Shown piece after piece: positions 17,733 through 20,318 of a stretch of DNA of 64,000 bases. The first letter of the stretch is position 1; each line of letters begins with the position of its first letter. The DNA is from Peptostreptococcus porci. GTDB lineage: Bacteria > Bacillota > Clostridia > Peptostreptococcales > Peptostreptococcaceae. Location: the NCBI RefSeq assembly GCF_009695815.1, contig NZ_VUNE01000002.1:124001-188000 (forward strand), written 5' to 3'. Both the position numbers and the translations under genes were made by a program. Under the pieces are notes generated by a model that was not told where the DNA came from, searched no databases, and saw only the letters and a program-made list of their open reading frames with translations.

Positions 17733-18494
17733 TTATTTTGGTTTATATGCTGAAAGAGATGATGTTCTGATATAATCCTTCAAATATTTATTTATATCTA
17801 GCTCAAATCCCCATTCTCTAGCATACTCTGGCGAAACCGTCCTTGTATCAATAACGATATCAACAAAGCCTGATTTTTTCATTATTCCAACCAACTCTTC
17901 CAGAGTCAATGCACCGGCTACTCATGAGCCATACATTCTGGGATCCTCTACAACCTCATTAGGAAGTGGGATATCCAAGGTTATATCTGAAATACCAAAT
18001 CTTCCCCCTGGCTTTAATATTCTAAAAATCTCGTCATACACCCTTTGTTTATCCGTCGAAAGATTTATCACACAATTACTCAATACAACATCAGCCAAAT
18101 TATCTCCTACAGGAATATTTTCAATCTCTCCCAACCGAAAATCTACATTTTTGAAATCATTCTTCTTGGCAATTTCTCTTGCTCTGCTTAGCATATCATA
18201 TGTCATATCTATTCCAATCGCCATGCCATCATTTCCGACCTTTTTTGAAGCCAGAAATACATCCATACCTCTACCACAGCCCAAATCAACTACAATCTCA
18301 CCTTTTTGAGGCTCTGCAATCTTCTGTGGATTTCCACACCCTAAACCGAGATTTGCCTCATTCGGAATGCTGTTCAAATCTTCCTGTGAGTACCCAATTG
18401 ATTTACTTATATCGTCCTTTTCTGAATTATTACTTCCCTTTGCTATTTCGCTATAAAACTCTGTGACGACAGTTTTTATTTCATTTTTTTCCAT
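17733..18494 (-). CDS. arsM: arsenite S-adenosylmethyltransferase, probable selenoprotein (TGA at codon 191)
   Basis: An ArsM-family methyltransferase that converts arsenite to methylated arsenicals. The SAM motif VVDLGCGRGMD (residues 68-78) and the As(III)-binding Cys53 in GLGCGNP are present. A conventional reading stops after 190 residues at TGA (17924-17922), just after DPRMYGS. The same frame then runs 62 codons without a stop: VAGALTLEEL, and finally SSLSAYKPK before TAA. That is exactly the rest of an ArsM protein. The TGA replaces the conserved Cys of the GCxxGAL motif, one of the arsenic-binding cysteines. A hairpin lies just downstream. I therefore infer selenocysteine at position 191 (253 residues in total). 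A nonsense mutation is the alternative. ArsS and its partner are encoded 14 kb away. Confidence 0.8.
17890..17924 (-). promoter_or_regulatory. UGA codon and candidate bacterial SECIS hairpin
   Basis: The TGA is at 17924-17922. After 11 bases the RNA can form an 8-pair stem, AUUGACUC (17910-17903) with GAGUUGGU (17897-17890), including three G-U pairs and a UGGAA apical loop. The loop starts 19 bases after the UGA and carries G at its second position. Spacing and loop resemble bacterial SECIS elements. The fold was made by hand and no energy was computed. Confidence 0.6.
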
Positions 18495-18827
18495 AATCGT
18501 TCTCCATCTAATATTCTTCTATCTTTTCGTTCACAATATCTTATTATTCTGGCGTATCCCACAATATAATCGCATTTCAATACTATCTCATTTCAATACT
18601 ATCTCATTTCTCACATCAATATTATATTTTCTATCAGTCAATCATTTTCTGCGATTTTATGACTTTATTTTTCCAATACCTACATTTTACCATAACCATA
18701 CTATTACTTTCCACTGTCAAATATTTATAAAAGACTATAAGGGGATTGATAATTATCAATAAAAAAAATATAATGTTAATATACAAAAAATATTTTTATG
18801 TTTTAATTTGAGATTGGAGAATTGACT
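18495..18827. other. divergent region with 16-bp tandem repeat
   Basis: A 333-base spacer between arsM and the DUF5714 gene. CATTTCAATACTATCT occurs twice in tandem (18573-18588, 18589-18604), with a third partial copy starting at 18605. No gene or known operator is recognised. Promoters for both flanking genes must lie here. Confidence 0.5.
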
Positions 18828-19553
18828 ATGAGATACTATCAGGGATGTATGATTTGTGGAGAAGACCTAGTTTATTCAGAAAAATATTCTGAATGTGAAT
18901 GTTCAATATGCGGAAAACCATTTAATTCAAATGTAAGATGTCAAAAGGGACACTATGTTTGTGATTCATGCCATAGTGCCGATGCGTTGGATATAATTGA
19001 AAACTATTGTGTTGGATGTGTTGAAAGCGATCCACTTGAAATTTCAATAAAATTGATGGACGATCCACATATATATCTTCATGGACCAGAACATCATTAT
19101 TTGATACCAGCCGCCCTAATAACTGCATATTGTAATCAATTCGAAACTCAAAATCAAAAAATCGAAAAACTAAAAATAGCAAAAGAAAGAGCTAGCATTG
19201 TTCCTGGAGGCTTCTGTGGATTTTATGGTTCTTGTGGTGCTGGAATCGGAGCAGGAATATTTGCGTCCGTTATATCAGAGGCAACTCCATTGACAACAGA
19301 TTCTTGGGGATTTGCAAATAAAATGACTGGATTTGTTTTGACTGAGCTTGGCGAAATTGGCGGACCGAGATGCTGTAAGAGAAATGGTTGGTACTCAATA
19401 ATTAAAGCGAGCGAGTTTTTGGATAGGGAAATGAACAAAAAACTATTCGATTACGAAAACGAACGACCAGTATGTACATACAAAAATAAAAATAAAGAAT
19501 GTATAAAAATTAACTGTCCATTTTTCTTAATAAAGGATTTAAAAATGCTATGA
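18828..19553 (+). CDS. DUF5714 domain protein with cysteine-rich N-terminus
   Basis: A 241-residue protein of the DUF5714 family, of unknown function. The first 75 residues contain several CxxC-type pairs (CMICG, CSICG, CDSC, CVGC), indicating one or two zinc ribbons or a metal cluster. A glycine-rich core (PGGFCGFYGSCGAGIGAGIF) and a later GGPRCCKRN segment add further cysteines. I chose ATG 18828 because GGAG lies 8 bases upstream; a TTG at 18822 is less well placed. It diverges from the selenoprotein-type arsM, which suggests but does not prove a shared role in metalloid or thiol chemistry. Confidence 0.72.
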   Translation: MRYYQGCMICGEDLVYSEKYSECECSICGKPFNSNVRCQKGHYVCDSCHSADALDIIENYCVGCVESDPLEISIKLMDDPHIYLHGPEHHYLIPAALITAYCNQFETQNQKIEKLKIAKERASIVPGGFCGFYGSCGAGIGAGIFASVISEATPLTTDSWGFANKMTGFVLTELGEIGGPRCCKRNGWYSIIKASEFLDREMNKKLFDYENERPVCTYKNKNKECIKINCPFFLIKDLKML

Positions 19554-19621: not shown

Positions 19622-20164
19622 CTACTTACTTCCTTCTGTTTCATATCCAGCATCAATCCAAGCTATTATTCCACCTGGTTGTCTGTAAATATTTGTGAAT
19701 CCAGCTTCTTTGGCAATCAAAGCACCAACATGAGATCTCTCACATTTAACAAATCCACAGTAAAGAACGACCTTTTTGTTTTTGTCACTTCCAAGAGCCT
19801 TTATAAAAGCGTCTTTTTGCTCTGGAGTAGTTTCATCCAATTTTACTGGCAATTCAGCGTTTACAGCACCTGGAATTCTGTTTTTGTCATAACTCTTTGC
19901 AGGCATAGTGTCGACAATAATCATATCTTCTTTTTTGTCTATCCAAGCCTTTAAGTCTTCAGTGCTAACCAATTTGTACTTACCTTCATCAACAGCCTTA
20001 ACCAACTGCATTGATGCCTGCTCGATTGTCAATTCATTTCCATCTTTGGCAGTACCAGGGCTATCTTTGGCTGGAGCCGCAGCTTGATTTCCTCCACCTG
20101 AGCAAGCACTTAAAGAAAGTGCCAATGCAAAGAATAATGCACATACTTTTGTCAATTTTTTCAT
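19622..20164 (-). CDS. rhodanese-domain lipoprotein
   Basis: A secreted, lipid-anchored sulfurtransferase-like protein. The signal peptide ends in the lipobox LSAC, followed by a Gly/Ala/Pro-rich spacer and one rhodanese domain (about residues 65-178). The active loop reads YCGFVKCERS. Cysteine is encoded at the catalytic position. The start at 20164 (MKKLTK) follows AAGGAG by 7 bases; an ATG six bases earlier is too close to that site. It would handle sulfane sulfur or other thiol chemistry on the outer membrane face. It is monocistronic as far as can be seen. Confidence 0.83.
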   Translation of the reverse strand: MKKLTKVCALFFALALSLSACSGGGNQAAAPAKDSPGTAKDGNELTIEQASMQLVKAVDEGKYKLVSTEDLKAWIDKKEDMIIVDTMPAKSYDKNRIPGAVNAELPVKLDETTPEQKDAFIKALGSDKNKKVVLYCGFVKCERSHVGALIAKEAGFTNIYRQPGGIIAWIDAGYETEGSK

Positions 20165-20318
20165 ACCCATTCTCCTTTAAAATAAATTATTCTTATAAAA
20201 ATTATATCAAATAAGAAAATAGGATTCAATTATACACCGTGAAAACGTTATAGTATTTTTCTATTATCTAATTCCGACAAATTGATTTATTGAATAATAA
20301 TAAAGTTGGCATGAGATA

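Follow-up and report, generated by a model that had tools for sequence, protein, structure and literature searches.

A probable selenoprotein form of arsenite methyltransferase in Peptostreptococcus porci, with a cysteine-rich DUF5714 neighbour

The 64,000-nt stretch of Peptostreptococcus porci DNA analysed here (the window; contig NZ_VUNE01000002.1, positions 124,001 to 188,000) carries an arsM gene whose product is very probably a functional arsenite S-adenosylmethionine (SAM) methyltransferase of the selenoprotein type, with UGA at codon 191 read as selenocysteine (Sec). An earlier inspection of the letters alone (the sequence-only reading) had proposed as much, and the proposal is supported by the Sec decoding machinery of the host, by exchange between TGA and Cys codons among homologues, and by a hairpin with G in its loop just beyond the TGA.

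Recoded arsM frame, homologues and decoding machinery

Under the standard code (table 11) the arsM open reading frame (ORF) is 190 aa, the truncated product that standard annotation had been expected to give, whereas translation of TGA as Sec yields a 253-residue protein with U191 as its only recoded residue (Table 1). Beyond the single TGA the frame runs on through 62 conserved, ArsM-like codons to its TAA, free of any other stop or frameshift as the sequence-only reading had described, and the residues from the TGA onward, U-VAGAL, match Cys-x-x-G-A-L. The full-length reading scores 285.5 bits against the NF008823 arsenite methyltransferase model (cut-off 263; protein residues 2-253). An AlphaFold2 model of it, with Cys replacing Sec, has a mean predicted local distance difference test score (pLDDT) of 91.1 and a predicted template modelling score (pTM) of 0.91, and is predicted to have the SAM-dependent methyltransferase fold of ArsM; the table 11 reading, ending at residue 190, drops a part of this modelled fold.

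Table 1. Positions of the arsM gene, its key codons and hairpin, and the adjoining DUF5714 gene within the window
Feature	Position	Strand	Details
arsM coding sequence	17733..18494	minus (18494 -> 17733)	253 codons and a TAA stop, UGA counted as selenocysteine
In-frame TGA, codon 191	17922..17924	minus	taken to encode selenocysteine; pairs with C. merolae ArsM C224 in the alignment
Cys53 codon TGT	18336..18338	minus	pairs with C. merolae ArsM C72 in the alignment; Cys in 45/45 rows
Cys141 codon TGT	18072..18074	minus	pairs with C. merolae ArsM C174 in the alignment; Cys in 45/45 rows
Bacterial SECIS-like hairpin	17890..17910	minus	9-bp stem ATTGACTCT/AGAGTTGGT, loop GGA
DUF5714 Cys-rich protein gene	18822..19553	plus	divergent from arsM; PF18978 210.9 bits

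Among 45 aligned homologous rows (window gene included), column 191 carries TGA in 28 rows and Cys in the other 17, so that the U/C exchange sought at this position is indeed seen; the 27 TGA rows besides the window gene come from 26 other genomes. Rows L025 and L027 (genome G022, a frame-broken copy with no usable residue at the column) and L054 (the same stretch as L053) were dropped before these counts. Of 71 same-family genomes searched, 15 have an arsM match; 14 of these hold 15 matches with one TGA each, the fifteenth being G022 with its frame-broken copy. In a class-wide sample of 391 genomes, 31 had a match, and among the 36 matches listed 13 carry one TGA and 23 none; six further stop-free matches in this sample were assigned no locus, and column 191 was not inspected in them. 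Two more cases came from scanning GTDB contigs: Clostridium frigidicarnis, with TGA at the column, and a Polyangia bin, with Cys. Presence of selA above its cut-off follows the codon: 26/26 genomes with the TGA form have it, as compared to 7/18 with a stop-free match (Fisher p 4e-6, only a guide because related genomes are not independent), a count over 44 genomes with a match that leaves out G022, C. frigidicarnis and the Polyangia bin.

The host genome (2.16 Mb, 11 contigs) has each of the Sec genes that the sequence-only reading had proposed to look for. Consecutive selD, selA and selB genes lie on one contig, SelB and SelD having been recognised from their translations and not by family scan, and the same contig (C7) carries a tRNA-Sec with anticodon UCA. 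Judged by this gene content, the host can decode UGA as Sec. Its selD (L002 8384-9436, minus strand) has an in-frame UGA (GGUAAK), so that the selenophosphate synthetase is likely itself a selenoprotein, and its grdA has one in-frame TGA; since both genes need UGA to be read, arsM is accompanied by other host genes dependent on UGA decoding. An ARAGORN call of tRNA-Pyl (L005 1312-1387) was rejected as a misparse of what by eye is a tRNA-Arg with UCU anticodon, and no PylS match in the host genome came up to the cut-off. The 64-kb window gave 0 matches in an Rfam scan at gathering scores.

The solved structures closest in sequence are those of ArsM enzymes. In the alignment with C. merolae ArsM, C53, C141 and U191 of the window protein fall opposite C72, C174 and C224, respectively, a pairing counted by hand. 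The TGA thus falls on the conserved arsenic-binding Cys to which it had been assigned, and all three ligand positions are Cys or Sec in 45/45 aligned rows. We take the algal C174 and C224 to pair with C156 and C206 of human AS3MT. The third position is Cys in C. merolae ArsM (PDB 4fr0, 6cx6) and in human AS3MT (8xt7), but Sec in the window protein. In the human enzyme, arsenic binding by Cys156 and Cys206 is confirmed, and Cys61, the equivalent of algal Cys72, is the third site (PMC3877260). Human Cys32 (PMC3877260) lacks a counterpart in the window protein because the latter has no Cys before C53.

Given this machinery and the downstream hairpin, SelB with Sec-tRNA(Sec) and GTP would recognise the stem-loop immediately downstream of the UGA, and selenocysteine would be inserted at residue 191. 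As in the rest of the family, the product would then bind trivalent arsenic through Cys53, Cys141 and Sec191, and methyl groups would pass from SAM to yield methylated arsenicals for detoxification. Sec insertion itself, As(III) as the substrate, and any catalytic gain of selenium over sulfur are things that we infer.

Downstream hairpin and alternative explanations

A UGGAA-loop hairpin had been reported to begin 11 bases after the TGA; a hairpin does start there, UGGAA resolving into the loop GGA with its closing U-A pair, and the spacing from UGA to loop is 20 nt. The published model of the bacterial selenocysteine insertion sequence (bSECIS) has four groups of constraints: (i) loop length 3-9 nt and stem length 4-16 bp, (ii) a G in the first two loop positions, (iii) a spacing of 16-37 nt and (iv) a minimum free energy (MFE) at or below -7.5 kcal/mol (PMC13188914). 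The suggested SECIS check, which we made by our own hairpin scan and not with a published bSECIS predictor, bore out groups (i) to (iii), whereas the energy limit is narrowly missed: the 50 nt starting at the UGA fold with an MFE of -7.2 kcal/mol, in a folding window that does not reproduce the published one.

That shortfall is one of several observations that weigh against a selenoprotein ArsM here. The hairpin does not fold more stably than shuffled sequence (z -0.19), the synonymous recoding test on the window gene alone gives p 0.048, and MFE z-scores fail to separate Sec from Cys rows (mean z -0.11 in 28 Sec rows, -0.14 in 18 Cys rows). An arsM search at E 1e-20 found the gene in none of 8 genus-mates, from which we regard it as accessory, and the nearest relatives found are only ~55% identical (up to 57% over partial matches). 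Neither arsR nor acr3 stands beside the window arsM, and the host genome has no match to acr3 or arsB and, elsewhere, a single ArsP_1-type permease.

Since they come out alike in Sec and Cys rows, MFE z-scores were rejected as SECIS evidence, and a hairpin scan with a G-in-loop rule was therefore used. It found a G-loop hairpin at -2 kcal/mol or better in 28/28 Sec rows versus 4/17 Cys rows, with an energy cut set without prior calibration and a loop-start range of 14-30 nt as compared to the published 16-37; its p-values overstate the contrast because the rows are related. Synonymous recoding gave p under 0.05 in 6/28 Sec rows and 1/17 Cys rows. Six Sec rows (P0001, L028 and L041-L044) have differing stems with GG-containing loops, and a stem around AGTT is common to most of the remaining ones. 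Taken alone, the window hairpin is weak evidence.

A Cys-type arsM decaying through a premature stop would account for standard ORF calling that ends at residue 190 and would sit easily with the lack of the gene among the genus-mates searched. Yet there is exactly one TGA, the frame after it is intact and conserved, the same column is TGA in the 27 other rows, and the host has Sec machinery; we consider such a nonsense mutation very improbable, in keeping with the sequence-only reading, which had judged a chance hit on this codon unlikely. Neither of the outcomes that it had named as telling against itself, lack of a Sec system or TGC-bearing relatives together with decay of this copy, was seen. 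With TGA recurring in 27 other rows, and selA in all 26 TGA-form genomes tested, a sequencing or assembly error at codon 191 is extremely improbable. Both pseudogene and sequencing error are thus rejected by the TGA column that the gene has in common with its relatives.

An ArsM-fold selenoprotein with a main substrate other than arsenite, such as another metalloid or an organometal, is also unlikely in our view. The window arsM adjoins the DUF5714 gene and, downstream on the minus strand, a set comprising a DeoR-type regulator, a PfkB kinase and a phosphotransferase system (PTS) gene, and not arsR or acr3, and the missing Acr3/ArsB match also speaks for such a substrate. Against it stand the NF008823 score above cut-off, the three ligand positions kept in the window protein, and the neighbourhoods of Sec relatives, which have an ArsR-type gene in 10/20 and an Acr3-type pump in 4/20. 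These 20 neighbourhoods were drawn from the 27 Sec relatives, some being cut by contig ends, and neighbours were clustered by BLAST with one or two representatives of each cluster identified.

Neighbouring genes and distribution

The same 20 neighbourhoods include a YfcE-type phosphodiesterase in 9 and DUF5714 in 5, these five being matches from 2 other genera. Family-wide, DUF5714 occurs in 8/15 genomes with an arsM match versus 6/56 without (p 0.001, uncorrected for relatedness). Six of the 8, namely the host genome, G023 and four that share a genus, have it directly adjoining an arsM; the distance is ~30 kb in G065 and ~22 kb in G067. The window DUF5714 protein is similar to a part of MbdU, a metal-binding double selenoprotein (NF045648, 135.5 bits, far under the cut-off of 600) whose name appears in this sense in PMC13188914 (among the best 6 of 40 matches); in the literature searched, no mention of DUF5714 was found. 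It is a candidate metal- or metalloid-binding partner of ArsM. One could go on to suppose, speculatively and with considerable doubt, that Sec-ArsM and DUF5714 form a two-part metalloid unit, in which DUF5714 would bind or hand over arsenic or its methylated product, and the Sec form would allow a host with no detected Acr3 or ArsB to depend on methylation alone.

Partial DUF5714 matches were also noted at G036:C1:1520468-1520689 and G043:C28:35876-36174, with a TGA in the G036 match and in one of the two G043 pieces; these are possibly decayed copies or Sec forms. A rhodanese-domain gene at 19622-20170 of the window (minus strand) has the selenoprotein TsoB model as its best NCBIfam match (77.9 bits, cut-off 805).

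Seven of the eight genus-mates have selA. In one of the eight, G045, the region from the spacer through the DUF5714 and rhodanese genes is 92.7% identical over 3825 bases, and its contig (C21) begins within the arsM-DUF5714 spacer; a looser arsM search in this genome gave only weak partial matches elsewhere (best E 1.4e-6). The lack of an arsM match at this place in G045 may reflect gain and loss or an assembly gap. The G045 spacer (L086 1-240, G045:C21) has short AT-rich direct repeats, partly matching the window at ~18750-18800, and the contig begins in these repeats.

In the tree, the window ArsM joins L028 of another family (88/86) and stands apart from the principal Sec cluster of its own, an uncertain placement in view of the long branches. 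Sec may have had a single origin or more than one; mapped on the tree, Sec and Cys states require at least 2 changes (bootstrap range 1-3).

Known selenoprotein relatives and significance

Sec arsenite methyltransferase was already in the literature by 2008, and the window gene adds one member. A 2026 review tabulates the enzyme among its "experimentally verified" selenoproteins (NF008823, motif UxxG, with reference to Fomenko 2007; PMC13188914), and it also appears in the table of a 2022 review (PMC9312934) and in a 2008 GOS table with the number 8, under a column heading outside the excerpt (PMC2398784); a 2016 survey counted 41 arsenite methyltransferase selenoproteins in 39 organisms (PMC5029168). 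The excerpts of PMC1794560 make no mention of arsenite. The selenoprotein listed in Table 1 of PMC13188914 (NF008823/PRK11873, representative WP_011987699.1) falls under the same family model, with a UxxG motif (UVAG in the window) and a single Sec; likened by model and motif and not by the representative's sequence, the window protein shows no difference of kind from it. Within the family it has YGSU, whereas 21/27 other Sec rows have YCGU. ArsM_AhpD_UU, ArsM_DUF2284_UU and methyltransferase/UXPK-star (NF041537, NF041536 and NF047649) have a related methyltransferase domain (136-153 bits) and are also listed with Sec in UxxG, but theirs are longer models, for which 2-3 Sec are given (PMC13188914), and the window protein falls far under their cut-offs.

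Because the family stands in published tables and reviews, the reading of the window gene as a Sec-ArsM holds yet brings no new kind, and no view is overturned. What is added is a divergent member, ~55% identical to the nearest relatives found, together with its Cys-rich DUF5714 neighbour. If the two-part unit is real, a function could be assigned to DUF5714, and MbdU, its relative, would be accounted for as well; in any case the linkage offers a way into an uncharacterised family. A divergent lineage within a family in which selenium replaces sulfur at an arsenic ligand would be a natural experiment on the role of Sec in metalloid binding.
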